A stretch of 60,810 bases of DNA from assembly GCA_903858935.1 (NCBI GenBank), contig CAIOKO010000217.1, forward strand, positions 1-60,810, given 5' to 3'. Position 1 is the first letter of the stretch; each line of letters starts with the position of its first letter. The position numbers were made by a program, and so were the translations under genes. Shown one piece after another: positions 1,247 through 20,200 of the stretch. A model generated the notes under the pieces. It ran no database searches, was not told the DNA's origin, and saw nothing but the letters and a program-made list of their open reading frames with translations. The DNA comes from an uncultured Schlesneria sp. (GTDB lineage Bacteria; Planctomycetota; Planctomycetia; Planctomycetales; Planctomycetaceae).

Positions 1247-1567
1247 TCAATCCGTCGTACTTAATACTGCGTCGCCGAAAAATGAGTACGTTCGTGTTTC
1301 GACTTCTGCATCTCCGTCGCCATCCGACCCGTAACAGTGGGTCGCGCCATTGTCATCTTCGGCAATCATTTCTGCTTCGTCTTCTGGAACGAGTTCAATG
1401 AACGACGAAACTAACGCGAACCCGATCGGACTGAGGACGTGACTCACCAGGTTCACGTAACAAATCGGCATGATTCGCACGCGTTTCGGCCATCGCCCGT
1501 ATCGACCGCGAAACCCATCGACTGCCATACAGACTCGCATCCAGTTCTTATCGTCGCCGTTTGCCAT
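1247..1567 (-). CDS. small conserved-looking protein at the end of the defence array
   Basis: This 106-residue protein starts 3 nt after the DUF499 stop codon, so it is almost certainly co-transcribed and perhaps translationally coupled. The N-terminal half contains a basic segment, VDGFRGRYGRWPKRVRI. The C-terminal half is strongly acidic (ELVPEDEAEMIAEDD, then a DGDGDAEVE run) and aromatic near the end. There is no signal peptide, membrane segment or known catalytic motif. I do not recognise a named family. Charge and position suggest an accessory or DNA-mimic-like factor of the system, but that is inference. The coding length and the tight junction with the upstream gene support it being real. 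Confidence 0.65.
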   Translation of the reverse strand: MANGDDKNWMRVCMAVDGFRGRYGRWPKRVRIMPICYVNLVSHVLSPIGFALVSSFIELVPEDEAEMIAEDDNGATHCYGSDGDGDAEVETRTYSFFGDAVLSTTD

Positions 1568-1570
1568 TTC

Positions 1571-4465
1571 TTAAATCTCCCAGTCTTTCGTTTTTAATCC
1601 GAGACTGTTCGCATTTTCGGTCACTGCTCGTTTGATCTGATCGGAAACACCGTCTGGGAATTCCGCCGAGATTTCCAGTGAGACTTTCACCGTAGCGTTG
1701 GGGTCCGAACATAGCAGTGAGATGATCTCATCCGCCAGTTGAATCAAACGCATCTTGGCCCCGGTCGGAGTCACATCCGCCGCACCGTGAAACGTCCTCG
1801 ATTTCGCTGCGACGGCTGGACCTGTCCCCGTCGATCCCGTGCCGCCGTTGGCACCGGTTCCGGTCTGGCCATTTGTTGTTGACCCAGTGCCGGTAGTGGC
1901 TCCCGTTGTGTCGCCACCTGTTGATGTGCCGCCGGCGGTCCCTGTTAACGCCGCTTTTGCAGCTTCTTCCGCCTTCTTCAATTTGGTGTCGTATTCGATG
2001 GCGGCGCCGGGCTCGATTAACAATAACGTATCATCAAACTGAACGTTCCCTTCGCCAAATTGGAAGCCAACGTACTTGTCGCCGTCCTGGCCGTAGGCGG
2101 TTCCGAAGAAGTCGCGTGACGCTGCTCCCGTGCGTATTGCTTGAGTCAATGGATCGCGATTTTTGAATCGTGGAAGAAAAAGATACCGATGCGAGTCTTC
2201 CCAGAAAGCCATCGCGCCGGCTGCGGCTTTGCCGTCTTTCCAGTACAGTTCCTTGAGCTTCGCACGGAGGTGGATCGGGGACCAGGTGGTGATGACCAAT
2301 TCGTTGTCGACGCAGACTTTTTCGATCTCATTTCCGGCCGAACCGCCGGTCGTGTTGAGCGGGAATGCTTCGACGGTAAGTTCAATTTCGGTGGGAGTAT
2401 TTTGAACGGGGCAAAGCAGCCACTTGTAACATTCCCGTGCAGCGCGGGGCACGACCTCTTCTGCGCTTTGCAGTTCCTTTTCAGCCTGCTTCTTCTGGAA
2501 CAGGTCGATGTTAAGGCGGCCATCCTTCACGTCTTCGACAATGGAATTCCACGCCAGGGCCACGCGTGCGGTGTCGCGGAGTCTGGTGAGGATCGCCATG
2601 TCGGGAGCGAGGAAAACGAGCCGATTGCCACGGTGTCTCGGTTTTGCACCATTGCTACGAACGTAATCGAGGGCCGCTCGTTCAGCAGGTTGCTTCAGGT
2701 CGCGTGAATGGCAGTTTTCGGGCGAGAGAACCACCAGCCGAAGCGAACTGTCGTCAGGCACGTCACCATGAGGCGTGAAGATATGGACGCCATCAAAGAA
2801 CGCAGCGATGCCGACCATCTTCTTGAGCGCTTCGGCGATCTTGCCTCGGACATCTGAATTGTCATCAAAGCGACGTTTGCGATCTTCCATCTCGCGGCGC
2901 AGATTCGCGCGTGTGTCAAACCAGAACCGAGTCGCTTCCTGGGTCTTGTCTCCCGAACTATTGAGATAGTGAAGTCGATCCGCCAAACGATTCAGTGCGT
3001 CGATGTATGTGGCCGATGTCTGGCCGGGCTGGAGACAGCCCAGCAATACGCGAGCTCGATCGAGTCCACGTATTCCCGACTTACCAGCAACAGAGGACGG
3101 CGCACTACCGAGGAATAACGTTCGCCCAGCACGTCGGGCCGCGTTTACCTGGCCGAAGCGAGGTTCCTTATTCTCGAGTTCAGTCGTTTCGGCACGATCG
3201 CCATCAATGTCTTTCTCGACAACGGCATCCCAACCGGCCGGAAGATAGACCGTCAATTCGTTTCGAGAGCTTCCGTCATAGAGCGGTAGACTGCCCGGCA
3301 TGATCATCAAGTCTTTGTTGTCATCCTTCCAGAGTCGGTAGATGACCTTGGCCATTAATTTCAGCACTCCACGAGTACGCTGGAAGCCATCGATGGTTGT
3401 CCAATCTTCGTAAAGGCGATCGAAAACTTCGGGATGGATCGGGTAAGCCTGGTGCAATCGATCAAAGTAATGACTTTCCTGCGTTTCGGCAGGAAGCTTT
3501 GAACCTTCGGCGACATACGCGTCGGCAAAGGCTCGACAGACCGCATCGCGTGCAACGCCGTCACGAACTGGTTCGAACAGACGCCGCCGGACGATTTCGA
3601 ACGCCTCTTCGGTGGCCACCGGTTTCCAGAGGGCCTGAACGCGTCCGAAGACATTTTCGAGACTACGCAAGGCTAACAGGCCGCGAGTTCCACCAACTTG
3701 CACGTTGGCGGTATCCTTGCCTGGTTCGCTTTCCGGCAACGATGCGAGAACAACAGCATTGGGGACGAGCTTGACCGCTTCCGTCAATGCTTGAATAAAC
3801 GAGATGTTGCTTTCGAAGCTGCCACCGCTCAGGGTCTGGCCATCCGGAAATTGACGAACGTAGGCGACCATTTCGTCGATCAGAATTACGCATGGGGCGT
3901 ACTTCGACAACAGATCTCGAAGCACCTCTTTTCCCGGCGAGGTACCAGTCGCGTCAGATTCTTTGACCATCGCGAATGCTTCGCTACCCCCGAGTTGCCA
4001 GGCCAATTCTCCCCAGAGTGTCTTGATCGATTGCCGACCATGCTTCCACGCCTGACCCGGCGAATGCTCATTCCCATCGAGGACTGCGACGGTTGCTTGT
4101 GGCAAGTCCATGATCCCCGCTTGTTCGATCAGCGATGGAATCCCGGCCAGCGACGAAAGTGCGCAGCGTCGGGTTGCCAGATGGTAAACGGCAAGCATCG
4201 TATGAGTCTTGCCACCCCCGAAGGCTGTTTGAAGCTGAATGACCGGCTCGCCGCCGTGTCCGGCCAGTCGCTGGGCCACTTGCATCAACAGTTGTCGCAT
4301 CCCCTCCGTAATATACGTCCGTTCGAAAAACGAGACCGTATCCTGGTACTCGCGCGCCGCCGTACCCGCTCGAACCGCCGTGATGTCGGCAGCGAACTCA
4401 GATTGCAGGAAGGTTCCTTCCAACACATCACGGTGGGGGACTGCTATTTCTCGCCAAGGTTTCAT
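1571..4465 (-). CDS. DUF499 family AAA+ ATPase (BrxC/PglY-like)
   Basis: A 964-residue cytoplasmic ATPase. The Walker A loop is AFGGGKTH (residues 81-88) and Walker B is ILIDEM (about 194-199), followed by long alpha/beta regions. This N-terminal layout and the start [19 protein letters not shown] fit the DUF499 family (COG1483 as remembered), which includes BrxC/PglY of BREX phage-defence systems. A Gly/Thr-rich low-complexity linker (roughly residues 842-888) joins the core to a separate C-terminal domain of about 75 residues, which may be a movable partner-binding module. The start is 20 nt downstream of the probable nuclease gene, and the stop is 3 nt before the 106-residue gene. Expected role: ATP-driven motor or assembly factor working with the DUF1156 methylase and the helicase. 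The role in this locus is inferred from neighbours. Confidence 0.9.
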
Positions 4466-4485
4466 ATTAGTTAAAGTCCTTTTCC

Positions 4486-5067
4486 TTATGTCACCGCCCA
4501 GGAAACGCCGTTCATTTGTGTCGTTTCAACGACGAGTGGGTGCGGGTCGATTGCCTTCACTAGCTGTTTCAATCGCTGAAGCACGCTTTTGGGTTCAATC
4601 GCTCGCGGGAATAATTTGGAATGTTTTGCAGGTTGCTCAAGGTACAACACAATCCGAAACCGTCGGCAAGCTAAAGCAGCAATCGCTTGTTCTCTTTCGG
4701 ATTCTTTGTTTGCGTTTGCTGCCGCTGCGGCCAATGCCGCCAGGCTGTCGCGTACCTTGATTGCGATTTCGTCGGCAATATCGAATGTCTTCGTGCGGCG
4801 GTGTTTACGATAATCCTTGATTTCGATGCACCAGCAACAGATCGTTCCCTCGATCGCGAGGATGTCAATCGCTTTTGTACCCGTCGTTGCAGGCTTTCCA
4901 CATGCCTGACAGGTTAATTCGTTGCCACATTTCTTGCTGCTACAGACGGCGCGCGTGCCACTCAGGCGATTAAACTGCTGCCGATAAAAGATCCATTCGT
5001 CGAACTTAGACGCTTGCCATCCGTCAGGAAAAGTGAATGTCAGTTGGCCCTCAGTGATCGATATCAT
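4486..5067 (-). CDS. probable PD-(D/E)XK-type nuclease, partner of the AAA ATPase
   Basis: A 193-residue protein whose ATG overlaps the stop of the upstream ATPase (ATGA, 5064-5067), a classic coupling junction. Residues around 64-90 read [10 protein letters not shown], then CIEIKDYR: an Asp on one strand, then E-x-K on the next, the spacing expected of a PD-(D/E)XK core. Before it lies a cluster of cysteines (CSSKKCG and CQACG), likely a zinc ribbon. A helix with KVRDSLAAL follows, then [10 protein letters not shown] do not recognise a named family. The nuclease call rests on the D...ExK pattern and on pairing with an OLD-like ATPase; it could instead be a non-catalytic DNA-binding subunit. 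It sits between the ATPase and the DUF499 gene. Confidence 0.6.
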
Positions 5068-6128
5068 GAGTGGACCTCAGCATCGATGTAACGGTCGGAT
5101 TGGCTGAGATCTTCCTGCAATGCGTCGATCTGGCCGATGTCGTCAATCGTCTCACCTTGTTCGACCTGGACACCGTCTTCACCCGGCTGCAGGCCGATGT
5201 ATTGGGACTTGATCTTCTTGAATTCCTTGTACTGGGACAGGATGTAAAGTTCACGAAGCAAAAAAAGGCTGTGGCTGGCAATGAAGACCTGAATCCCGCT
5301 TAGACACAGGTTGAGAATCGTGCGAGCGATCAGCTTGATGACTTTCGGATTCAAGTTCGATTCGGGTTCATCCCAAAACAAACACCCCTTATCGATGAGC
5401 GAACCAGTCGCAATCAGACGGGCGATCGTCGCGAGTTTCCGCAGCCCTTCCGCGACGAGGTGCATCTCCATATTGACGCCAGCAATATTCAGATAAAAAC
5501 GGCCTGACTTGTCTAATTCCACCTTTCCGTTCATCGCCTCTTCGAGCGGCGCCAGCAAGTCCTTGATCCGTTTCTCGCGAGGGCCTTTCGCCAGCGGCGC
5601 ACCCAGAAGGATACATGTGTCCCGCCACGTCTCTTCAAACGGGAAATAGGTGGTTTCATAGAGCGAGACAAAACCGGGATAGATCGTCAGCAGCTCACGG
5701 GTTGGAAGGTAGACGGGAAGCTTTTCGACCCACGAGGACGGCGTTTTGTCGATCGTGACTTCGGACTTACTTGTCGTGTTGAACGAGTAGGCCAAACTTT
5801 GTTCGGTGGGAATCAATTCGCATTTGACTTCGCATCGCTGCCGACCCCTACGATCGCGACGTGCGAGACGCCCAAGTTCATCGGGGCGAAAGACAACGTT
5901 AAGTTTATCGGCAATCGCGGTCTGAAGGTACGCTTTGGTCGGAGGGGCCGGATTCGGGTCTCTGTTACCCTTCGCGCTGACGTAAAGTGCCGAGTAAGCA
6001 GCTTTCAGAATATGAGTCTTGCCGGTTCCATTTTCACCCACGATGACGTTGAGACCGGGCGCGAATTTCAAATTGGCATGCTTGAAAGTGGTGAAATTCA
6101 CCAACTCCATCGATTTCAGCATTTTCAA
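5064..6128 (-). CDS. AAA ATPase, OLD/SMC-like (AAA_21 type)
   Basis: A 354-residue ABC-like ATPase. Walker A is GENGTGKT (about residues 32-39), an ABC-signature-like AEGLRKLA sits at about 228-235, Walker B is CLFWDEPESNLNP, and an H-loop IASHS follows. The spacing between Walker A and the signature is short, without a long coiled coil. No TOPRIM domain follows, unlike OLD proteins, so nuclease activity must come from a partner. The gene immediately downstream overlaps it by 4 nt and encodes a probable nuclease. The start lies 9 nt after the methylase stop. Such ATPase-nuclease pairs (Septu, Gabija, retron effectors) act in phage sensing, and I infer the same here. The C-terminal tail is acidic and Gln-rich. 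Confidence 0.85.
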   Translation of the reverse strand: MKMLKSMELVNFTTFKHANLKFAPGLNVIVGENGTGKTHILKAAYSALYVSAKGNRDPNPAPPTKAYLQTAIADKLNVVFRPDELGRLARRDRRGRQRCEVKCELIPTEQSLAYSFNTTSKSEVTIDKTPSSWVEKLPVYLPTRELLTIYPGFVSLYETTYFPFEETWRDTCILLGAPLAKGPREKRIKDLLAPLEEAMNGKVELDKSGRFYLNIAGVNMEMHLVAEGLRKLATIARLIATGSLIDKGCLFWDEPESNLNPKVIKLIARTILNLCLSGIQVFIASHSLFLLRELYILSQYKEFKKIKSQYIGLQPGEDGVQVEQGETIDDIGQIDALQEDLSQSDRYIDAEVHS

Positions 6129-6137
6129 ATTCCCTTC

Positions 6138-9041
6138 TCATTCAAATAAGGTGCGCTGGGTCGGAGTCGGAACCTTCGCAGCGGCGGATTCGATGCCGGC
6201 CCAGGAAGTGACGACTTCGTTGTACGCACGAGCGTCCTCGGCCCAGCTTTTACGCTCGCAGAGAGTGTAAAGCCGATAGGCGAGCTGTCGGGCGGCTTCC
6301 GCTTTTGATTGGACGGCCGCGAAAACCGCCGCCGCTCCCGTTTCGCCATCGGTGTTGAAAACCCGGATCAGTTGATGCAGGACTTCCCAGATCGGTAGCC
6401 GTTGATCGGATTGCGGGTCCCAATCGTTGGGGTACTCCGCCCATTTCAGCAGCCTCACATTACCGCTCGCGGAGTAGAGCACGCCCGCGTGTTTCACACC
6501 GTCGACGCTTGTGCCCTTAGCACGTGCCAGAGTGTCGGCCGCTCCGAATTTGCCGGTTTCCCATCCGTATTGTTCGAACCAATGAAGGCAGAATTGGGTA
6601 TCAGCATCGAAGTCATCTTCCGCGAGAAAGCGATTAATAAGTTGAAGTGCGGATTTGATGCTCATACGCGAGCCGTCGGCTTCGAGGACTGCACCGTATT
6701 TCGAGAAGACGGCCATGCCAGGGCCAATGATCGCTTGCGATAGGTCAACTGGTGTAACAGGCGAGCGTAATCCATCGCTCGCGCGCGTCATTGCGTCCAT
6801 AGCGATCGGCAGCGTCACATTAAGCTCCCGAATGAACTGCCGACGAGAAATCGTCTGGGCGTCATCCAATCTTGGTCTGCAGATCAAAATAATTGACGAC
6901 GCGAGCGCGTTAGCGCCCAACCCAATTTGCCGATTGTCGCCTTCCGTTCGCATCGGCCAAGTACCAGTAATGGCCAGACCTGACCGCAATACGGCCTCAA
7001 GAAACGTTTCCCATCCCGTATTCGAAGTCTCCCCCTTGGCCTCAGTCTCGCTCTGCTTAAACGCGTAATAAATTGAAATAGGAGCGGACGGATGGGCTTG
7101 AACCGCGAGGTTGCGCATTGCTTCTGTCATGCCATTCAAGAAAAACTTTTCTGCGCAGTCTTTTGTCGCATGGCGATGCGGCATCGCGACGAGTTCTTCG
7201 GTTTTTGGAACGGAGATTGTCGCGAGGAGTTTTGGAAACATTGTCCGAAGAGACCGCCGTAGCCAAACGTAGAAGAAGTCTGATAGGTCAGCATAGCCGA
7301 TATTGTCGTAATACGGCGGGTCAGTTGAGATGAATTTCGAAACGCTCACCGATTGAGTCTGGGCGTCTGCCTGCTGTGCGTAACCGTGACCCAATGCAGG
7401 TAATAAAGGTATCACGTTCGATACGACACCTATCGCCTCAATGAAACCGGAACTCGACTTGGCGAACGGAGAACCTTCAGCGAAGTCCCATGTCATCGGC
7501 ACAGCCTGCTTCGAAAACATCGAACGCATGGCATTGTCTTTCGTCCGCCATGTCGCAATCGTACATCCATAATCAGCGAGGCGGCTGATTCCGAATGCGA
7601 GGAAGAGACACACGCTATCTGCGTAGGCTTTAGCTCCAGTCCCTTCACTTTCAAGACCGAGACCGTCGTCGACGAAGCCTGCTCGCAATGCATCTCCATG
7701 AATTATTTCCCGCACTTCGGAAATCAAATCACTAAACGTCGTTAACGCAACTAATTGTCGGCGCGTGAAGATATCGCCGAAATTATTCATCCCATAAACC
7801 GGGGCTTGAAAGTTGCGATGTTTTTTCGGCATCTCACAATCAGGCTTCCACGTCGGCGCTGCGGATGCGGCGACAGATTCCATTTCGGTTGTGGGAGAGA
7901 GGTAAATTCGGCCACGGGTTCCTTCTACGACGATGGCGAGCAATTTTTGCCCAATCCGCCCTGATTTACCTTCCTCGCGAATATATTTGTAGTCAATGGC
8001 AGCGTCAGACATCAGACAACGAAAGGCCTGCCGTTTGCCAGCGGAAGTGCCGATTTTAGCCTCGATAGGCGGTTTTCCCACTTTTACCGTAAACCGGTAG
8101 TTACCGCCGTCGATAATGGGCTGAACGTACGATTCCTTGCCAGGCTTGCTGCTCAGAACAAAAGTAGTTGCAAGCGGTACGTCGACATTTGAGAAAGCTG
8201 GATTTGGACTTTTAACCGTTCGCACCCATAGGCAGGCAATTGTGGATAATTTGCACCCTAGATACGCTTGAAGGTCAGTTCTTACCGACGCCATCTCCTG
8301 CGTGATTTCAGTTGCTGGATAGAGGTGGCCGATCCGCTTAAACGCTTCATCCCACATCCATTGACCATAATTGCGCACATCCGCAGCTAGTCCCTGCGCC
8401 CCATGAAATGCCTTGAGTTCAGTTACGATTTTGTTCTGCGAGGAGGATTTGACGGATGGACGCCCTGCAAATTTTGGTGGAATCTCGATCAACGCTTTAT
8501 TGATGAGGACGGCGACGGGGTTGAGATCGCTTGCGTACGCATCCAACCCGAGACGTTGCGCTTCGAGCGGGATTGAGCCGCCACCACAAAACGGGTCATG
8601 AAATCCCGGCATTTTTTCTGGGTTGAAGAGGCAGTTGGCTTGCGGATGAGATTTATTGAGCTCACATGTTTCACTCCACGACTTACACACTTCTTCTCGA
8701 GCTCTATCTAGGATCGTTTGATTGGTAGTGTTCTCCCAGCGAACGAGATCTTCAATCACGGTAAAGAGCCTCGCGCGCGCTTTTGTCCAATGGCCCTTCA
8801 CCTGTTGATTTGGCACCGTGCCAGGGTTCTGACATCGCCAAAGGTCCTCAGGGTCGTTGACCAATTGCGCGAAGATCACGGCGCGCGCCGCAGCTAGCGG
8901 ACGCTGCGCCCACCATGTGTGAAGAGTCGTCGGGTAGCCCTTTGGTGCCTTACGTTTTGTAGCGGCCGATGCAGCATTAATAGCGTCAAGCGGCAATGCG
9001 ACCTCGATAAGCTTTTTCGGCGATATGATCATTGATAACAT
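6138..9041 (-). CDS. DUF1156 adenine-specific DNA methyltransferase (PglX-like)
   Basis: This 967-residue protein (start ATG at 9041; an in-frame ATG at 9032 is equally possible) begins with the DUF1156 signature, IEVALPLDAINAAS then TTLHTWWAQRPLAAARA. Methyltransferase motif I is DPFCGGGSIPLEA (about 149-161), followed by SDLNPVAV. The catalytic motif IV is DPPYYDN (574-580), typical of N6-adenine enzymes. The family (COG1743 as remembered) occurs in defence islands together with DUF499 ATPases and SNF2 helicases, where it replaces PglX. Role: modification of self DNA, or a modification-dependent step of exclusion. It begins 17 nt downstream of the HNH gene, and the next ATPase gene starts 9 nt after its stop. 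All motif residues are present. Confidence 0.92.
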   Translation of the reverse strand: MLSMIISPKKLIEVALPLDAINAASAATKRKAPKGYPTTLHTWWAQRPLAAARAVIFAQLVNDPEDLWRCQNPGTVPNQQVKGHWTKARARLFTVIEDLVRWENTTNQTILDRAREEVCKSWSETCELNKSHPQANCLFNPEKMPGFHDPFCGGGSIPLEAQRLGLDAYASDLNPVAVLINKALIEIPPKFAGRPSVKSSSQNKIVTELKAFHGAQGLAADVRNYGQWMWDEAFKRIGHLYPATEITQEMASVRTDLQAYLGCKLSTIACLWVRTVKSPNPAFSNVDVPLATTFVLSSKPGKESYVQPIIDGGNYRFTVKVGKPPIEAKIGTSAGKRQAFRCLMSDAAIDYKYIREEGKSGRIGQKLLAIVVEGTRGRIYLSPTTEMESVAASAAPTWKPDCEMPKKHRNFQAPVYGMNNFGDIFTRRQLVALTTFSDLISEVREIIHGDALRAGFVDDGLGLESEGTGAKAYADSVCLFLAFGISRLADYGCTIATWRTKDNAMRSMFSKQAVPMTWDFAEGSPFAKSSSGFIEAIGVVSNVIPLLPALGHGYAQQADAQTQSVSVSKFISTDPPYYDNIGYADLSDFFYVWLRRSLRTMFPKLLATISVPKTEELVAMPHRHATKDCAEKFFLNGMTEAMRNLAVQAHPSAPISIYYAFKQSETEAKGETSNTGWETFLEAVLRSGLAITGTWPMRTEGDNRQIGLGANALASSIILICRPRLDDAQTISRRQFIRELNVTLPIAMDAMTRASDGLRSPVTPVDLSQAIIGPGMAVFSKYGAVLEADGSRMSIKSALQLINRFLAEDDFDADTQFCLHWFEQYGWETGKFGAADTLARAKGTSVDGVKHAGVLYSASGNVRLLKWAEYPNDWDPQSDQRLPIWEVLHQLIRVFNTDGETGAAAVFAAVQSKAEAARQLAYRLYTLCERKSWAEDARAYNEVVTSWAGIESAAAKVPTPTQRTLFE

Positions 9042-9058
9042 CTTTAACCCGGCCCAGC

Positions 9059-9703
9059 CTAAAACGGCGATAACGTATGCTTGATTGCGGAAGCAAATGG
9101 TAGATGTCGGGTCGCTGCAATTTCCATTTCCAAATACGACTTCACTTCTTCCAACGGTGACTGCTGTGCGATAGCGGCGATGTCATCGCCAATTGTGACG
9201 TATTCCATGCACGCGTTTTTCCTCATATAACGAAGAGGCCCGCGCGTGGAATCTAAATTAAAAACTCGTAGCGTCTCGTTAGCTCGATGCAGTTCCGCCG
9301 CGGTCAATCCTGACCTTGGACGAATCGTTCCATCGCTGGAAAATCGAAGAAAATGCTCGGGGTCTTCGTCCGCTGGATTGATCAGGTCATTGACGTTGTA
9401 AGGCCCCGCACCGTTGTCTTTGAAACGCCCACAGTGGTACAGATCGTCACACGACCAGAACAGATTTTCCCAGGTGAAGATCAACGTTGGGAAGTCGCCC
9501 CGTGATCGAAAGTGCTCAATATGCTGGCCGCGTTCGTCCAGGGAAGCCTCACAATAAGCACATCGTCGACCTTGGAATTGTTCGAGAGAGTCACGGATTT
9601 CCTGACGTTCATCGAAATCCAGGGAGTCCCAGTTGTGAGTCCCGTGCCGAAATTGTCCGAGACAGTTCGGCGCCTGGATGGGAGTTCGATCAAGCTTATG
9701 CAC
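9059..9703 (-). CDS. ptuB: PtuB-like HNH endonuclease (Septu type)
   Basis: A 214-residue protein. The HNH-like core runs RRCAYCEASL, then HIEHFRSR, then FTWENLFWSCDD with a downstream HCGRFKDN. This is the CxxC / IEHF / W-x-NL-x-SC pattern of the family remembered as TIGR02646, which covers PtuB of Septu and the retron Ec78 HNH effector. It overlaps the upstream PtuA-like ATPase by 8 nt (9696-9703), as expected for a coupled ptuAB pair. In Septu, PtuB is the DNA-cleaving subunit bound to PtuA. Here the pair lies between a helicase and a methylase in one direction. The metal/zinc cysteines and the central histidine are visible. The gene symbol is given by family resemblance. Confidence 0.82.
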   Translation of the reverse strand: MHKLDRTPIQAPNCLGQFRHGTHNWDSLDFDERQEIRDSLEQFQGRRCAYCEASLDERGQHIEHFRSRGDFPTLIFTWENLFWSCDDLYHCGRFKDNGAGPYNVNDLINPADEDPEHFLRFSSDGTIRPRSGLTAAELHRANETLRVFNLDSTRGPLRYMRKNACMEYVTIGDDIAAIAQQSPLEEVKSYLEMEIAATRHLPFASAIKHTLSPF

Positions 9704-11066
9704 GCTGCGAATCCCCCGTTAAACGACTTCGTTTGAACTGGGTAAACCGGATCAGACGTTCACATTCCAAAATCAGAGGATGCTGTTCGCCGAAATGGAC
9801 GATCAGTTGCGCCTTCAACGCCTTTCCTTCCTCCGTTTCCTCGCGTCCTGTTTCAATCAATGCACGATAATCACTTAACCAATGAACCTGAGGGACATCC
9901 GGGACCGGATCAACTCCCATGATTTCTGCCAGGACAACTGCGCTTTCAACACCCCTTGTCTGAAACTGTCGCCCGGACAACTGCGTCGTTCCGTCAGGTG
10001 GTCCCAACACGCCGATCGTGCTCACATCGACAGTCGACAAGACTTGAGGACTGTGTGTTGTCAAAATAAGTTGAGTATTTGGAAACGTCCGACGCAAATC
10101 CGGAATCACTCGCTGTTGCCACGAGGGATGTAAATGTAAGTCGATTTCATCGATGATTAGAATTGCCGGTGTGGCCAGGACGTCATCTGATTCTGAGCAC
10201 GGTGGGTTTGCCAGCGATAAGCGGAGAGCGAAATCCATTACGACGCCCAGCATTACCTGATAACCATCCGACAACTGCTCGAGGTGCAAGCGAATTCTTG
10301 CACCGGAAGTATCAACCGAATCAACGGCGAATCGTCCCGTTTTGCTATCGATTCGCGGATTCTGTACCCTCGGGATCATCTGCTCGATCGCCCGTCGTAC
10401 TGCTGTCAGCGAAAGTGCCGCTTCGGGTGGATCGTTATCCCGTTTCTCACGAAATTCACGCTGCTCCAGCATGTCAAACCAGGAAACAGCCCTTCGGAAA
10501 TCGGATTTGGATTCCAAGGCGTTCTCCAATCCGACGAGGCGACGAAACGTTCTGGGCATTTCTTTCGATCGCATCCGATTGTGGGGAACATCGACGGCTC
10601 GATTGGTGCCGTAATGAGCGAACACCGGCAGTTGATACAGCTCCTTCTGGTTATGGGCCTCAATCAATGAGTCGACGTAAGAGTACAGACCCTTGGTGTC
10701 ACGGCGTCCGCGTGGTGCCTGCTCCTTCGTCCCTTTTGCCGTATCGCGATGTTTGATTCGATCCCAAGCCCACTCTTGGACATGGCTTCCCTCTATGATG
10801 CCACCACGTGCCTGCAGAAAGGTATAGGGCTCGGACCGATCTTCTTCCGTCAGGCGGATATCCTGGGGTGTCAGGCCCGGAACAGTTGGACGTTTTTCAA
10901 ATGGCAGTCGACTGAGAATCGGTGCCAACAAAACCCTGATCGCGTCCAGCAACGAACTCTTACCCGATCCGTTTCCGCCGACGAAAACGTTCAGATCCGG
11001 TTTTAAATCGAATTTGATCGATTTGAAACAGCGATAGTTTTGGATCTCGATGTGATTAAGAATCAT
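9696..11066 (-). CDS. ptuA: PtuA-like AAA ATPase (Septu type)
   Basis: A 456-residue ATPase of the AAA_21 group. The start MILNHIEIQNYRCFKSIKF leads into Walker A GGNGSGKSS (about 31-39). Further on are the ABC-type signature EQLSDGYQ, Walker B ILIIDEIDLHLHP and the H-loop LTTHSPQV. The C-terminal third contains the segment ESAVVLAEIMGVDP, common in PtuA and retron-associated ATPases, and ends in a basic helix. It senses or gates the HNH partner, with which it overlaps by 8 nt. The 362-nt gap to the upstream helicase holds a TIR-bounded repeat, so it may have its own promoter or depend on read-through. RloA-like or generic OLD-like ATPases are alternatives, but the adjacent HNH gene favours PtuA. 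Confidence 0.82.
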   Translation of the reverse strand: MILNHIEIQNYRCFKSIKFDLKPDLNVFVGGNGSGKSSLLDAIRVLLAPILSRLPFEKRPTVPGLTPQDIRLTEEDRSEPYTFLQARGGIIEGSHVQEWAWDRIKHRDTAKGTKEQAPRGRRDTKGLYSYVDSLIEAHNQKELYQLPVFAHYGTNRAVDVPHNRMRSKEMPRTFRRLVGLENALESKSDFRRAVSWFDMLEQREFREKRDNDPPEAALSLTAVRRAIEQMIPRVQNPRIDSKTGRFAVDSVDTSGARIRLHLEQLSDGYQVMLGVVMDFALRLSLANPPCSESDDVLATPAILIIDEIDLHLHPSWQQRVIPDLRRTFPNTQLILTTHSPQVLSTVDVSTIGVLGPPDGTTQLSGRQFQTRGVESAVVLAEIMGVDPVPDVPQVHWLSDYRALIETGREETEEGKALKAQLIVHFGEQHPLILECERLIRFTQFKRSRLTGDSQRA

Positions 11067-11109
11067 GGTCTAATTTTCGTCTTCCGCCGCGATTTCTGTT
11101 CTTGTCTTT

Positions 11110-11333
11110 CGCCGCGAAGCGGCACAGGCATTCAGCCTGGGGTTTCAACCCCAGGAAAATTGAGCAATCTCGTTTTTCAAGCTCCGAAGGAGCGACGGTG
11201 AACCTCTCGATGCAGCCCCGGATTCAACGGCAACCTCGATGAGACCTGCGCCCCTAACAGGGCTTCGAGGATTATGGCGGACATCTGCCTGGGGTTGAAA
11301 CCCCAGGCTTCATGCCGACGCCGCATCGCGGCT
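11110..11333. repeat. MITE-like element with ~46-bp terminal inverted repeats
   Basis: The left arm (11110-11155) and right arm (11288-11333) are reverse complements with only a few mismatches. Each contains the perfect palindrome CCTGGGGTTNNAACCCCAGG and a GCCGCGA-x-GCGGC hairpin. The interior has a short GCTCCGAAGGAGC palindrome. No coding capacity is seen. It lies exactly between the helicase and ptuA genes, the only sizeable gap in the array. Confidence 0.75.
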
Positions 11334-11428
11334 AAGACCATTGATGAGTCCGCGTATCCAGCCACGACGTTTTCTTCATCTCGGAAAAATCATTACGCCT
11401 CCTGCCAAAATATTTTTTCTGTCGACAC

Positions 11429-14400
11429 TCAAAAATGTCCTCCGGCCTTTTCCATTTTCGACAATAAGTCGCTCACGTTGTAGTTAATCGAACAGACGCC
11501 CCAGCCCGGTTCTCGGTCGAACGGGCGACGGATGTAGAACGGCCCTTCTACACTATCATTCTCAGCAACGAATACGATGGCTAACACAAACTTGTCACCC
11601 TGATTGAAGGCGTACAACATTTCATTGCGTGTGACGGTGATTGTGGCCGCTCCTTTGATCCGTCCTTTCACTTCGATGTGACGCGGCTCGGGTTGCTTGT
11701 GGTCGGTTGCCGGGGGATGAGATGTCAGGTCCCAACCGCATTTGTCTTGGGAAACATCTACGACACGGCAACCAGCGGCCTCCTCGGTGCGTCGCACGGC
11801 GTCCATAGCAATGCGTTCGATCCGGCTGCGAGCAATCGGATCGGCTGAGAAGCTAGACGAAGTTTCTTCGTCGCCTCGAATTTTCCGCATCAACCCCGCT
11901 GGAACAACCAACGCCCCCCCCAGCACAATCGGCGTGCCGTTAACGACGTGACGCATCGATTGAAGTTCTTTTTTCCGGTTCTCCAGTCGACCTTCCAGAT
12001 CTGTCACCATTCGCCGGGCATTTTCGACGTTCATTCGCAGGTCTTTGCCCGCTTCCAGATCGTGTTTGAGTTTGATCCAGCGATCGGTCCAAAACGCAAT
12101 TTCCTTGCTCAGTCGCTCGTTCACCGCCGCCAGTGTTTTGTCGACATGGGCCACTCGGCGCTCAGAGACTTCTCGAAAATGTTCGGGGACCAGGGTGTTG
12201 GCGGCTAAGGCAATCGCTCGCTGCTCCTGGTTGACGTGAATCCATGGGGCATTGAGGATGTCTTTGAGCAGCACCTGTTCCGAAGCGGTCACCGGTTCCA
12301 GGTCGAGATGGGGTGCCCAGCCCGCGAATGATGTCGAGCCGTCGGGATTGACGCGGACGAATTGCAGCCGTTTGGAAAGGACCTGTCCGTCGCCTGATTT
12401 GACCTCGTGCGTTAGCAGAAACATTAACCACGGATCGAGACCGTCGTCGCCCGGATCGACTAATACAGCCCCTTGACGTAATAAGTTGGCATGTTGTTCC
12501 AGCAGCACGTCGCTGACGGCCAACATTAACGGATGCCCAGGATGCATCAACACGGCTCGTTCCATGCCGGGTTTGTCTGATGGCTGCACCGCTTCCTTTT
12601 CGAAACAGACTCGGCCATACCGTTTGAGGACCGGTTCAAGCTCGCGGCGGTTGCGTCCCGTGATCCGGCGATCGCGTTCGCGGATTGACGCCGGAACGTG
12701 GGTGATCTCGTACCGCCCGGACTCCCGAGGGTACATCGAGCCACCAAGCTGTTCGAACGCCTTCATGAAGAAGGAACGGACGAAATAAGGCTGAAGTCGA
12801 CGTGCTTCGGCCTTTTCCATTTCGGATTTTACCGCAAACAGTCGGTCGGCACTCATTGTCTCTTGGGCCAATGCGTTGCTATCGAGCAATGACTTCAGAT
12901 GGCTATGGTCTAGAGCTTGATCGATCTTCTGCGTGAGACGTGCGCGGACATCGGGATCATCGCCGTAGCGGATTGCTCGTATCAACAATTCCTTCAGACT
13001 CGTCCCCTCGAACACTTCACCGAGGATGTCGAAGACGCGTCCCTTGAGAGCCTCGCTTTCAATCGCCAGCTTTTCGAGCAAGCGATGATAAACGTCCCCC
13101 TCTCGAGTCTCCTTGGCCACAAGGTTCCACAGATGGCAAACCTCGACCTGGCCGATACGGTGAATTCGGCCAAATCGCTGTTCCAGTCGATTGGGATTCC
13201 ACGGAAGGTCGTAGTTGACCATCAGGTTGGCGCATTGCAGGTTGACCCCTTCACCTGCGGCATCGGTGGCGACCAATACGCGTACTTCAGGGTCGGAACG
13301 GAACAAGGCTTGTAATCGTCGGCGTTCGTCACGATTGGTTCCACCGTGAATCGTAATAATTGCGTCGTGGTTCCCGAGGACTCCGGCGATTTTCTGATGC
13401 AGGTAGTTCAGGGTATCGCGGTGCTCGGAAAAAATGATCAATTTCCGTTGACGACCGGAGGCGTCCCGCATTTCCGGTGCGTTCTGAAGAATCTTTGAGA
13501 GCTCTTCCCATTTCCGATCCTGCCCCGAGGCAACGACTCCTTTGGCTCGCTCTTCGAGTCCTTTGAGGATGACGATTTCTGCTTCCAGTTCGTTGATGGT
13601 CTGGGCTGCGGTGGCGTCATCGACCAAGGCTTCTTCAAGGTTTTCCTGCTCCTCGGCGTTCAGGTCATCATCGTCCTCGGGAGCGGCGGCGAGCGGTTCG
13701 GCCATGGCATTGCGGCCTCGAATGCCGAGCTTTTCTTCTCGCAGTCGGCTTTCCAGACGCTCTTTGCGGCGGCGGAGCGATTGGAAGATCGCTTCCGGGC
13801 TGGAAGCGAGCCGACGCTGAAGGGCGGTGAGTGCGAAACCGACCGAGCCTTTGCGGGACCCTTTCAGCTCGTCCGCCTTCCCCATTTCGGTCTTCACGTA
13901 GTCGGTCACCGCTTCGTAGAGGGCCGATTCGATGTCCGAAAGTTTGTAATTGACGGTGTACGCCTTCCGTTCGGGAAACAGCGGCGTGTTATCGAATTTG
14001 ACCAATTCCTCTTTGACCATGCGGCGCATCAGGTCCGACGCATCCACTTTGTGAACGCCGTCCCGAAATTTTCCATAGAAGCGGTCTGAATCGAGCAACG
14101 AAAGAAAGAGCTGAAAATCCTCTTCCTTTCCGCTGTGGGGTGTCGCTGTCATCAAGAGCAGGTGACGCGAGTTCTGACCCAGACGTTCCGCAAACCGGAA
14201 CCGTCCGGTTTTTTCGAGTTTTGTCCCAAAGTAGTGTGCCGCGAGTTTGTGGGCTTCGTCAAAAACGGCGAGATCCCATCCGGCGTTACAGAGTTTTTCC
14301 TGGAGATCCTCGTTCCGGGCCATCTGATCGAGACGAACGATCAATTGATGATGGTCTTCAAACGGGTTGACGCCCGGTGTCGCCTCTTCGAGTGCCGATG

Positions 14401-14947
14401 AATAGACTCGAAAATCGAGGCCGAATTTCTCGGACAGTTCGTCCCGCCATTGCTCGACCAGACTCCCGGGCGCGACGATCAGAATGCGTCTGGCGTCGGC
14501 TCGCATGATCAGTTCGCGGATGTAGAGGCCCGCCATGATAGTTTTGCCCGCTCCAGGGTCGTCGGCTAGAACGAACCGCAGCGGCTGTCGGGGAAGCATG
14601 GACTCGTAAACGGCGGTGATCTGGTGGGGAAGTGGATCGACGTTCGAGGTGTGAACCGCCATCATCGGGTCGAAGAGGAATGCGAGGTCGATTCGCTTGG
14701 CTTCGCAGGTCAACTGGAACGCGGCCCCATCGCCATCGAATGACCAGGGACGTTCGACGGTGGCAACGCTGAGACTGACTTCATCGCCTCGGCCTAACAA
14801 TCGTTCTTTTGTCGTTCCGTCAGGCGTACGGTAAAAGACCTGAACCGCACCTTCCCCGATCGGTACGACGGCAGCGACCGTAGCGACGACGGACGGCTCC
14901 AGTCCATCGAGGGCGAGCCCTGGCTTCAGGTCTTCAAGTTTCGTCAT
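11429..14947 (-). CDS. SNF2/DEAH-type helicase with C-terminal DUF3883
   Basis: I place the start at the ATG at 14947 ([10 protein letters not shown]), giving 1172 residues; an upstream in-frame extension to 15010 looks non-native. Motif I is ADDPGAGKT (about 129-137), motif [10 protein letters not shown] (DEAH about 230-233), motif [13 protein letters not shown]. The C-terminal helicase lobe has [15 protein letters not shown], then [19 protein letters not shown] charged coiled-coil region lies between lobes. The last 130 residues match DUF3883 (a nuclease-like or protease-like fold found in defence helicases), with [16 protein letters not shown]; the E-V-K there could be a degenerate PD-(D/E)XK core. 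It is first in the array and resembles BrxHII/DrmD-type helicases, so I infer DNA translocation during exclusion. The stop is followed by the 362-nt repeat gap. Confidence 0.9.
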
Positions 14948-15271
14948 ATAGCCCTGATGCTCCAACAGTTTACGGCATCTGCGTGGACACGGAATTTGGC
15001 GGCACCACACCCTACAATGAAGGAGATTTTGATAAGGACGTTTACTCTACCGAGGTGGATCAAGATTCACCATCCTCATGCGAAAAGGGTCGAACGGAAT
15101 CGTTTCGATTCAGCCTCGGTGACACTGCCGTTTTCAAGAACAGGACAAACGATCCAGGCCGCGAGTTTTCGGAAGAAGATTTCTCACGCCAACATAGAAC
15201 GAGGGGTACGCTTGGCTACGTCAGCGTTTCGTTAGTGTGGGGGGAACTGAAGTTTGCCCCCAACCGCCGCC

Positions 15272-15342
15272 TCAAAATCGACTATTCCCATGAGCATCTT
15301 CCAATCGTTAAGAATCTGTGTCGCTTGTGTGATGTGTTGTGC
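15272..15342 (+). repeat. direct repeat, copy 1 of 2
   Basis: About 70 bp starting TCAAAATCGACTATTC recurs at 15596 with few differences (324-bp period). Both copies contain TTAAGAATCTGTGTCG. No ORF is supported here. Confidence 0.7.
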
Positions 15343-15426
15343 ACCAACCTCCCTTCACGAAGACCCCATGGGAGGCAAATTCCCGAGCGAGTCTGATTTT
15401 CGCTGCCAGGACTAGGGCAAAGGCCC

Positions 15427-15458
15427 GTTAACCACCGCCGCGGGGGCGGTGGGGTTTG
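15427..15458. repeat. GC-rich hairpin (CCACCGCC / GGCGGTGG)
   Basis: A perfect 8-bp GC stem around GCGG, followed by GGTTTGG on the + strand. It could act as a weak terminator for + strand transcription, but no gene ends here. Confidence 0.35.
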
Positions 15459-15595
15459 GTCAGATGATGGCCTGTTTTACGGGCAATCTCGCCGGAAAAT
15501 GGCTTCGCTGCGGTGTCTGTCGGGGCGAAATGATCGCTTTCCCGAACCAGTTATTCGTACCGGACTTATGCGCCCTGAACGACTGATTCCTTTCT

Positions 15596-17276: not shown

Positions 17277-20200
17277 TTGAAGCTGCGCAGCAAGACGATT
17301 CGCCAGGGAATCGAGCGTTTGAAAGCAAGGATCGGCGTTGATGGTCTTTTCCGGGAATTTGGAAATGATCTGCCATTACGCTCAGAATTGTTCAGTCTGA
17401 GCCAGTTAGAGGAACATGCCGAGACGCTGGCCGCATGGCATGAAATCGACCCTCGGTCGGGGCCAGACCGATTGCTGGTTCGGCTGACCGATAACCAGAA
17501 CATTCTGCGAGAAGCTTACAAGCTGATGCTCGATGCCGTGCAGCACGATCGACATATCGTGCCGGCGGGGGAGTGGTTGCTCGACAACTACTATTTGATC
17601 GAAGAGCAGATTCGGACCGCTCGACGACATCTTCCGGCCAAGTACAGTCGAGATCTGCCTCGGCTGATGAATGGTCCTTCCGCGGGATACCCGTGCGTCT
17701 ATGATCTGGCACTTGAATTGATTTCACACGTCGATGGAAGGATCGATGCCGAAACTTTGCGGACGTATGTCGCAGCCTATCAGCGACGACGACCACTCAA
17801 GCTGGGTGAGCTTTGGGCGGTTCCGATTATGATGCGGCAGGCGCTCATCGAGAATTTGCGTCGCGTGGCGGCAAGGATCGCGACCGGTCGCCTTGATCGT
17901 GACTCGGCCTCACGCTGGGCCGATCAGTTCATTCAATGTGTCGAGACCTCTCCGAAAGATCTGGTGCTGTGCCTGGCCGATATGGCGAGACCGAATCCCG
18001 TTCTTTCCAGTGCATTCGTGGCGGAACTGGCTCGGCGTCTTCAACGCCAAAGTCCGGCACTCGCGTTTCCGCTTACCTGGGTTGAACAGCGGCTGGCGGA
18101 AAACGGCCAAACCATTGAAACTATGGTTCAGATCGAAGGTCATCAACAGGCGGTCGACCAGGTTTCGATCGGCAACAGCATTAATAGTTTGCGTGAACTC
18201 GAAGCGATTGACTGGCGCGATTTCGTTGAAGGATTAAGTGTCGTCGAGCATTCGTTGCGGGATGATCCTGCCGGCGTCTATTCAAATATGGATTTCAGCA
18301 CGCGCGACCAATATCGTCACGTGATCGAAGCCATGGCCAAGCGAAGTAAACTTTCCGAATACGACGTTTCACAGAACGCGATCCAACTGGCCCGACAATC
18401 GGAATTAGAAAAAGGAGCAACAGATCGGAAGTCACATGTCGGATTCTATCTCGTTGACAAGGGTCTGCCGGAGCTGGAACGTACGTCTCAGATGCATCAT
18501 TCCATCGTTTCCTTCGCGGCACGACTGGCAAGCAAGCAACCACTTTTATTTTATGTCGGTGGGATCGGCCTGATTTCCATACTGGTGACCGCTGGAGTTC
18601 TGGAACGAACGACGGTTCTTCACGGTCAGCGGTTCGGCTTATGGTTCGTCGCATTGCTGCTATTCGTCAGCGCGACTCATCTGGGTGTCGGTCTGGTGAA
18701 CTGGCTGACGACGATGTTCGTCAGGCCAAGTCGTCTGCCGCGAATGGATTTTTCTGAAGGAATTCCCGAGGAATTCAGTACGCTTGTGGTGGTTCCCACG
18801 ATGCTGGTTACCCATGACGGGGTGAAACGACTTCTGGAAGGACTTGAAGTCCGCTATCTCGCCAATCGTGATCCTCACTTGCGATTCTGTTTGCTGACAG
18901 ACGTCCGGGATGCGGCTCAGCAGGTCATGCCCGAAGACGACGCGTTAATTGCATTGGCCGGCGCGGGGATCGAATCCCTAAATGCGAAATATCGTGATCA
19001 AGCCGAACGCCAGACCAACGGAGAAGATACGGATTCGCTATCGACCGATCTCTTTTTCCTGTTACATCGGCCGCGTCTCTGGAACCCCCAGGAACAAATC
19101 TGGATGGGCTATGAGCGAAAGCGAGGGAAACTCGGCGAGCTTAACAAGCTTTTGCTGCGGGGCTCGAACGAAGGATTTTCGCTGGTCGTGGGTGATGTCG
19201 CACTGCTGAATCATGTGAAGTACGTCATCACGCTTGATACCGATACGCTGTTGCCGCGCGACGCGGCGAGACAACTTGTAGGAACGATGGCCCATCCTCT
19301 TAATCGGCCTCAGCTCGATCCCCGTCGAAACATCGTCGTTGAAGGTTACGGGATCCTGCAACCCGGAGTCGCAGTCCGTTTCGAGAAAACCCGTCCGTCC
19401 TGGTTCCTGGAACTATTTGGTGGAGAGCCCGGGATTGATCCGTACACACGTGCAATTTCAGATGTGTATCAGGATGTTTTCCACGAAGGTTCGTTCATCG
19501 GCAAAGGGATCTACGATGTCGACACGTTTTCGGCCACAGTCGACGGGCGATTTCCGGAAAATCGAATTCTGAGTCATGATCTGCTCGAAGGTTGTTATGC
19601 CCGATCCGGGCTGGTGAGTGACATCTGCGTTTTCGAAAGTTTTCCTTCTAATTATCAGTCCGATGTCAGCCGTCGGCACCGCTGGATTCGAGGCGACTGG
19701 CAAATCGCCGGATGGTTGTTGCCAACAAGCGGTAATCCCATCAGCCTCCTTTCTCGGTGGAAGATTCTGGATAACCTGCGACGAAGTGTTGTTCCATTCG
19801 CCGTCATTCTGACATTGATTCTGGCCTGGTTGGACATGACTCGAGCGGGATTATTGACGGCAGTTGTCGTGGGGATCATGGTGTTCCCTACGCTCTGTGC
19901 GTCATTTGTGGCATCGTTTCGAAAAGCAACGGATCTGCCGCTCGCCATGCATTTGCGAAGATCATTCAATTCCATCGGCACCAGCCTGTTGCAATCGACA
20001 TTGACCATCGCATTTCTTCCCTACGAGGCCTATTTCAGTCTCGATGCCATTGTACGAACGATTGTCCGCGGGGTTTGGACTCACCGACGGATGCTCGAAT
20101 GGAAGACCGCCAGCGATGCCGAATGCGATGGAACAGGCGATGTTGCTGACTGGTATCGGACAATGTGGATTGCACCAGCACTGTCGATCGTTGTCAGCGG

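Follow-up and report, generated by a model that had tools for sequence, protein, structure and literature searches.

Do eight co-directional genes in a planctomycete contig make up one undescribed defence system, or do they combine systems that already have names? The question is raised by positions 1247–14947 of a 60,810-base stretch of DNA from an uncultured Schlesneria sp. (contig CAIOKO010000217.1, C217), which we call the window; it is a whole contig of a 7.93-Mb genome. The original prediction, made from the sequence alone, read the eight genes as a single new system. Our analysis gives a different answer. With a probability of about 0.93, the locus is an Hma (helicase–methylase–ATPase) anti-phage system, i.e., a restriction–modification-like system related to Type-1, DUF499-centred bacteriophage exclusion (BREX) systems, with a Septu cassette embedded between hmaA and hmaB, an HEC-02 cassette embedded between hmaB and hmaC, and a gene for a 106-amino-acid (aa) protein as a bystander. 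It is a well-preserved locus of an already described type, and the class of system is not new.

Identification of the Locus

Seven of the eight genes are named by profiles in PADLOC-DB, namely as HmaA, PtuA, PtuB, HmaB, HEC-02B, HEC-02A, and HmaC. The helicase, the methylase, and the DUF499 ATPase matched the HmaA, HmaB, and HmaC profiles over their full lengths with 2036, 1602, and 1440 bits, respectively, and their genes follow one another in the order A-B-C. These matches bear out the earlier view of a defence locus with a BREX-like core of methylase, DUF499 ATPase, and helicase, with no PglZ on the contig, and also that of two separate ATPase–nuclease pairs, which are Septu and HEC-02. Profile searches likewise agreed with the domains that had been proposed (SNF2/DEAH with DUF3883, DUF1156, DUF499, two SMC/OLD-like ATPases, PtuA, and PtuB). 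The claim of novelty fails, because the trio is the described Hma or Type-1 BREX-related (BR) core and both pairs carry names.

Hma was named by Payne et al. in 2021, who reported 1,638 instances across 26 phyla and often found Septu type I alongside (PMC8565338); the same trio appears as the Type-1 DUF499-centred BR systems of a 2026 paper (PMC12839542). The literature already gives Septu inside Hma systems as an instance of such embedding (PMC12255303). HEC stands for Hma-embedded candidate; several of these have tested antiviral activity, and HEC-06 and HEC-04 are named among them (PMC12988326, PMC12111858). In the available parts of these last two papers, we found no statement on HEC-02 itself.

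An open reading frame (ORF) check of the window confirmed that all eight minus-strand ORFs are open and lie in the order originally given. The original prediction counted seven tight junctions out of eight. Eight genes have seven junctions, of which six are of 20 nucleotides (nt) or less or overlapping; the exception is the hmaA–ptuA junction, with 362 nt.

Proteins of the Hma Core

HmaA (11429–14947, minus strand; PADLOC PDLC00659, residues 1–1168) is an SNF2/DEAH helicase in which the DEAH residues D230 and E231 are invariant in all 67 aligned HmaA sequences. Its NOV_C domain (DUF3883; residues 1043–1132 in Pfam) contains a nuclease motif, D1073...E1092-x-K1094, that is also invariant (67/67). 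From this motif, HmaA appears to be a helicase with its own C-terminal PD-(D/E)XK-type nuclease, which would cut DNA. The earlier reading overlooked this motif. Translation from the ATG at 14947 gives a protein whose first residue already lies within the profile match, and a longer GTG start at 15010 is therefore less likely.

HmaB (6138–9041, minus strand; matched over residues 3–963) has a DUF1156 domain at residues 15–72 (Pfam) and a DPPY motif at residues 574–577 that is invariant in 89 of 89 sequences. A DPPY motif is that of an amino-methyltransferase, most likely of N6-adenine (or N4-cytosine), rather than of a 5-methylcytosine (m5C) enzyme. HmaB is thus a putative self-marking amino-methyltransferase, probably acting on N6-adenine, and it probably also handles target recognition.

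HmaC (1571–4465, minus strand; PDLC00662, residues 1–963) is an AAA+ ATPase whose sole Pfam match is DUF499 (104 bits), with no HEPN match at E ≤ 0.1. Residues K86, T87, D197, and E198 are invariant in 75 of 75 sequences. At E ≤ 0.1 in PADLOC, the protein matched the HmaC and DUF499 models alone, and a search by sequence for a solved structure at E ≤ 0.01 gave none.

Proteins of the Septu and HEC-02 Cassettes

The first cassette consists of ptuA (9696–11066) and ptuB (9059–9703), both on the minus strand. PtuA (456 aa; 406 bits, residues 1–443) has a Walker A motif at 31–37 and the sequence IIDEID at 304–309, and matched the solved PtuA structure 8ee4 over residues 3–440. PtuB (295 bits, residues 1–212) is an HNH nuclease by profile and exceeded the cut-off of NCBIfam NF041761 (153.4 bits against 150); H64 and N80 are invariant in 13 of 13 sequences, and H61 occurs in 11 of the 13. 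None of the eight genes gave a reverse-transcriptase match in Pfam, PADLOC, or NCBIfam, so the locus is not of the retron Ec78 type. Upon infection, PtuAB of one E. coli Septu cleaves tRNA-Tyr, for which the ATPase motif and the HNH motif are each required (PMC13096335), and DNA cutting by PtuAB of the window is therefore not to be assumed. Together with the nuclease motif in the helicase itself, this makes it doubtful that the two pairs supply DNA cleavage, as had been proposed.

The second cassette, also on the minus strand, consists of the genes for HEC-02B (5064–6128; PDLC04146, 510 bits, residues 3–350), an SMC/OLD-like ATPase with the Walker A motif GENGTGKT at residues 31–38, and HEC-02A (4486–5067; PDLC04145, 208 bits, best stretch 60–192), a protein of 193 aa. 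Two features support the earlier label of PD-(D/E)XK nuclease for HEC-02A. All seven of the embedded copies compared share the motif D68/E82/K84, and strands at 66–73 and 77–85 were modelled with modest confidence (mean pLDDT, the predicted local distance difference test score, of 71.5 from five sequences), but a fold search with this model returned no solved match at E ≤ 0.001. We therefore treat the assignment as a motif call, and the nuclease as putative. At residues about 41–60, HEC-02A also has a four-Cys, zinc-ribbon-like insert, which is present in the free-standing copies of loci L164 and L165 (described below).

The 106-Amino-Acid Protein

The last gene of the array, p106 (1247–1567, minus strand), encodes a protein for which searches of Pfam, PADLOC, and NCBIfam at E ≤ 0.1 gave no family. 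A tblastn search at E ≤ 0.01 covered 95 fetched loci of Hma or DUF499 type, which come from 94 distinct records and include three that are not Hma proper. It found the gene in none of them (0/95), although both positive controls were recovered. Among 198 related genomes, homologues occurred in the window's own genome and in one other, G070 (64% identity). The latter copy lies on an 11-kb contig whose ORFs, judged by eye, include no Hma gene, and the G070 genome lacks an HmaC match. A search of 392 genomes from the phylum gave the gene in its own genome alone, and a search of a plasmid collection did not find it. We thus rejected this protein as a component of the system and consider it a neighbour outside it. 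Just beyond it, on the plus strand, is a gene for a 79-aa Unstab_antitox (PF09720) addiction-module component (770–1009).

Distribution of Cassettes in Hma Loci

We surveyed the best 80 of at least 576 confirmed relatives, and the sample therefore leans to relatives of the window's HmaB. These 80, ten further relatives' loci, and the window gave 91 Hma loci. The reading of loci left out L032 (the same record as L047), L043 (truncated), and L045, in which no helicase was seen. Two other loci, L044 and L046, with 27–33% identity and probably of another DUF499 type, were read but kept outside the gap-occupancy counts. HmaC profile matches were found in 47 of the 198 related genomes, many of them weak or partial. 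Gap occupancy and protein clusters rest on ORFs of ≥ 90 aa, from which small genes that overlap longer antisense ORFs are dropped. Gap placement, free-standing loci, and the absence of the 106-aa gene rest on searches at the DNA level, which for gap placement covered the 95 fetched loci. In these searches, each cassette protein was represented in a locus by its best match; the cut-offs for cassettes were E ≤ 1e-8, > 55 bits, and > 100 residues.

The hmaA–hmaB junction was readable in 67 loci, the hmaB–hmaC junction in 79, and both in 65. Of these 65 loci, 19 had genes in both gaps, 19 in the first gap only, 12 in the second only, and 15 in neither. Where both neighbours were readable, Septu lay in the hmaA–hmaB gap in 15 of 15 loci (14/14 without the window), and HEC-02 lay in the hmaB–hmaC gap in 12 of 12 (11/11 without the window). 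None of these loci had its best Septu or HEC-02 match outside the Hma genes. The complete seven-gene order of the window recurs in L035, from the same family, and in L122. Two loci outside the counts fit the same rule, i.e., L067, with Septu upstream of hmaB and hmaA off the contig, and L056, with HEC-02 downstream of hmaB and no hmaC found.

Twelve protein clusters had at least three members; ten of these occurred in one gap only and two in both. When the clusters were collapsed into eight modules, six were confined to a single gap, and none of 100,000 label shuffles reached six, in a shuffle that ignores relatedness. PADLOC named cluster members as HEC-01 (two proteins of a pair), HEC-05, and HEC-09 (one member each), and a gene in the second gap of L077, whose core is close to that of the window, as HEC-06; the clusters are thus for the most part those already in the published list. 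In the second gap of L047, a 501-aa helicase-like protein (6969–8474 of that record) is weakly similar to BrxH, DrmD, and HmaA, and has a 285-aa neighbour.

Free-Standing Pairs and Exchange of Cassettes

Both pairs also occur without Hma. Nine stretches of 11–17 kb with PtuA or HEC-02B matches contained no HmaA, HmaB, or HmaC at E ≤ 1e-4. Free Septu pairs were found in L159 (PtuA 48% and PtuB 57% identical to those of the window), L160, and L162, the more distant ones with 28–31% identity, while L161 had PtuA without PtuB. Free HEC-02 pairs were found in L163–L166 (HEC-02B 57–63%) and, more distantly, in L167 (35%). The genomes of L159, L160, L162, and L163–L165 had no HmaC match anywhere; those of L161, L166, and L167 had one elsewhere in the genome. 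Since Septu and HEC-02 stand alone in related genomes, neither needs an Hma partner.

In an HmaA tree (67 rows, FastTree), the window is sister to L047 and L077 (support 100), and L035 is next out (99); the cores closest to the window by HmaA are Planctomycetota records. L047 and L077 have neither Septu nor HEC-02, whereas L035 has both. On this tree, Septu, present in 15 of 66 loci, requires at least 12 changes; HEC-02, present in 10 of 64, requires at least nine, with gains and losses counted together. The identities of HmaA correlate with those of HmaC (r = 0.93 in the PtuA set and 0.84 in the HEC-02 set), but less with those of HmaB (0.60 and 0.63) and of the cassettes (PtuA, 0.66; HEC-02B, 0.63). 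For example, L065 and L066 are 84% identical in HmaA and 87% in HmaC, yet 40% in PtuA.

In the PtuA tree (18 rows), the window copy groups with the free copy of L159, from another genome of the family (99/97), and the L035 copy groups with alphaproteobacterial Hma copies (99/98). A clade of the window and L035 was rejected by the approximately unbiased (AU) test (p-AU = 2.6e-10; this test was chosen after the identities had been seen and before the tree), as was one of L065 and L066 (p = 0.015). In the HEC-02B tree (15 rows), the L035 copy groups with the free L164 (98/94), within a six-row set that includes the window (99/99). Embedded and free copies are unclustered in this tree (4 changes; 500 of 500 shuffles as low). 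Long branches in these trees are those of L049, L103, and L161 and of L069, L111, L122, and L167, and the end branch of L159 is 1.2. The trees support the view that cassettes were replaced in at least some loci while the core persisted. The window locus, which has its gene order in common with L035 but a PtuA of other affinity, lends itself to studying how defence modules are swapped in place.

HmaB itself looks like a mosaic. Its residues 481–540 are 88% identical to those of L037, a more distant core, and 33% to both sister cores, while residues 841–960 are 85–92% identical to the sister cores and 67–75% to L037, which suggests exchange within the target-recognition region. Separately, a Bradyrhizobium Hma locus (L099) is 78% identical to the window in HmaA and 69% in HmaC, but just 53% in HmaB; the methylase may have been replaced between these lineages.

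The fidelity of Septu to the first gap and of HEC-02 to the second appears to go beyond known work, and the locus looks like a chassis with two sockets. We propose tentatively, at somewhat less than even odds, that Hma loci in general are built in this way: hmaA and hmaC would persist together, the target-recognition part of hmaB would be swapped, and each socket would accept cassettes of one class (Septu and HEC-09-like ones between hmaA and hmaB; HEC-02 and HEC-01-like ones between hmaB and hmaC), with cassettes moving between distant bacteria and between free and embedded states.

Proposed Mode of Action and Alternative Explanations

From protein families and the literature, the core would restrict DNA by its methylation state. 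HmaB would mark self DNA by amino-group methylation, probably at N6-adenine; by homology with BREX, the AAA+ ATPase HmaC would build a scanning complex that senses unmarked DNA; and HmaA, in which the catalytic residues are present, would translocate along unmarked DNA and cut it with its C-terminal nuclease. The cassettes would be separate second layers with ATPase sensors of their own: PtuAB as an HNH nuclease that responds to infection and perhaps cuts tRNA, as one E. coli Septu does, and HEC-02 as an ATPase paired with a nuclease like those of the PD-(D/E)XK type.

In the original prediction, the trio detects and the two pairs cut DNA, as parts of one undescribed eight-gene system. The tight junctions and the recurrence of the seven-gene order in L035 and L122 would fit such a system. 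However, the neighbourhood survey found core and pairs in many combinations rather than a conserved set of eight, the pairs combine freely with the core on the HmaA tree and stand alone elsewhere, the 106-aa gene is missing from all 95 other loci, and profiles named for these roles exist already for all of the genes but p106. We therefore rejected this explanation as very improbable. The same holds for a BREX system whose PglZ was lost or displaced, which we judge highly unlikely. The three core proteins are homologous to parts of type-3 BREX (PMC12839542), and HmaA matches BrxHI/HII with 310 bits, but the scores of the Hma profiles are far higher, and no PglZ or BrxL appeared among the PADLOC matches listed for the eight proteins. 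At E ≤ 0.001, the whole genome has one match to PglZ (PF08665), and it is on contig C220, not on the window contig. There, an 872-aa PglZ lies beside BrxL and the end of PglX in a BREX-type locus (L138, G000:C220:1-20000). Four genes separate pglZ from pglX there; two resemble ATPases by eye, and the other two are small. This locus is separate and not a missing part of the Hma locus; a standard BREX with PglZ or BrxL just outside the array is thus not the case.

Functional coupling is a third alternative, and the locus bears on whether embedding is mere linkage or such coupling. If the pairs were tied functionally to the Hma core, for instance by being set off once a phage blocks the core, this would explain why each keeps its own gap, as the counts and the shuffle test indicate, and it would suit the tight junctions; such modules have been proposed as backup effectors (PMC12839542). 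Conversely, Septu and HEC-02 are free-standing in related genomes, and gap fidelity could also arise by homologous exchange through the flanking core genes. We consider coupled layers unlikely, although far from negligible. Several points weigh against our reading of an Hma system with independent embedded cassettes. The enzymatic activities of all proteins of the locus are putative, and the short junctions suggest co-transcription, which leaves room for coupling of the cassettes to the core. In addition, embedded and free PtuA copies are clustered beyond chance (2 changes against a shuffled mean of 3.7, with 11 of 500 shuffles as low), which limits how freely the two kinds of copies mix.

The hmaA–ptuA Gap and Other Features of the Window

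The 362-nt gap between hmaA and ptuA (11067–11428, minus strand) is unusually long; the spacing in the other 13 PtuA loci is −64 to 46 nt. Two inverted arms, each about 48 bp long and 85% alike, make the gap a foldback (fold z = −6.17), and it holds two CCTGGGGTTNNAACCCCAGG palindromes (mean of 0.00 in 100 shuffles). The repeat has 10 matches, including itself, on four contigs of the genome, with similar arms on C142, C82, and C143. One arm (11110–11155) matched Rfam RF01687, Acido-Lenti-1, with 37.7 bits, just above the threshold of 37. A scan of 14900–15500 for sigma-70-like promoters found none.

Elsewhere in the window, a plus-strand ORF of 2978 aa (17277–26213) has GH94, glucoamylase-like, and glycosyltransferase domains, and presumably encodes a cyclic beta-glucan synthase-like protein. 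The families PSCyt1, PSCyt2, PSD1, and DUF1501 are also present.

Comparison With Known Systems

A reading of the locus as DISARM (defence island system associated with restriction–modification) is disfavoured. HmaA matched DrmD with 388 bits and DrmA with 256 bits, against 2036 for the HmaA model, and neither DrmB nor DrmC was among the PADLOC matches listed for the eight proteins. PADLOC also contains BrxC models, and none matched HmaC, which was recognized by HmaC and DUF499 in PADLOC and by DUF499 in Pfam. The statement in the original prediction that DUF499 includes BrxC is outdated, as BrxC is best matched by DUF6079 (PMC12839542). BREX type 3 shares a homologous helicase, methylase, and ATPase with the locus (PMC12839542), but the window contig lacks PglZ.

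As in Septu type I, ptuA adjoins ptuB and both products are full-length matches, PtuA also to 8ee4; the pair of the window is embedded in Hma rather than alone. As in HEC-02 of PADLOC-DB 2.0, HEC-02A and HEC-02B are adjacent and lie between hmaB and hmaC; in this case, the difference is the four-Cys insert of HEC-02A, which is absent from the six other embedded copies compared.

The three core genes are identical in kind to those of Hma as first named, with full-length profile matches, but HmaB was called an m5C methyltransferase in that study (PMC8565338), whereas the DPPY motif in HmaB of the window agrees with PMC12839542. The latter paper describes Type-1 BR systems as a DUF499 ATPase, a DUF1156 N6-methylase, and a Swi2/Snf2 helicase with a C-terminal restriction endonuclease (REase), and reports OLD-ABC ATPases paired with HNH or PD-(D/E)XK nucleases at BR loci (PMC12839542). 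The window shares the ATPase, the methylase, the helicase with a C-terminal nuclease domain, and the ATPase–nuclease pairs. It differs from these systems in that its DUF499 protein has no HEPN match and in that two different backup pairs are present in one locus. The locus thus shows two named cassettes simultaneously, one in each gap of a single row of Hma genes.

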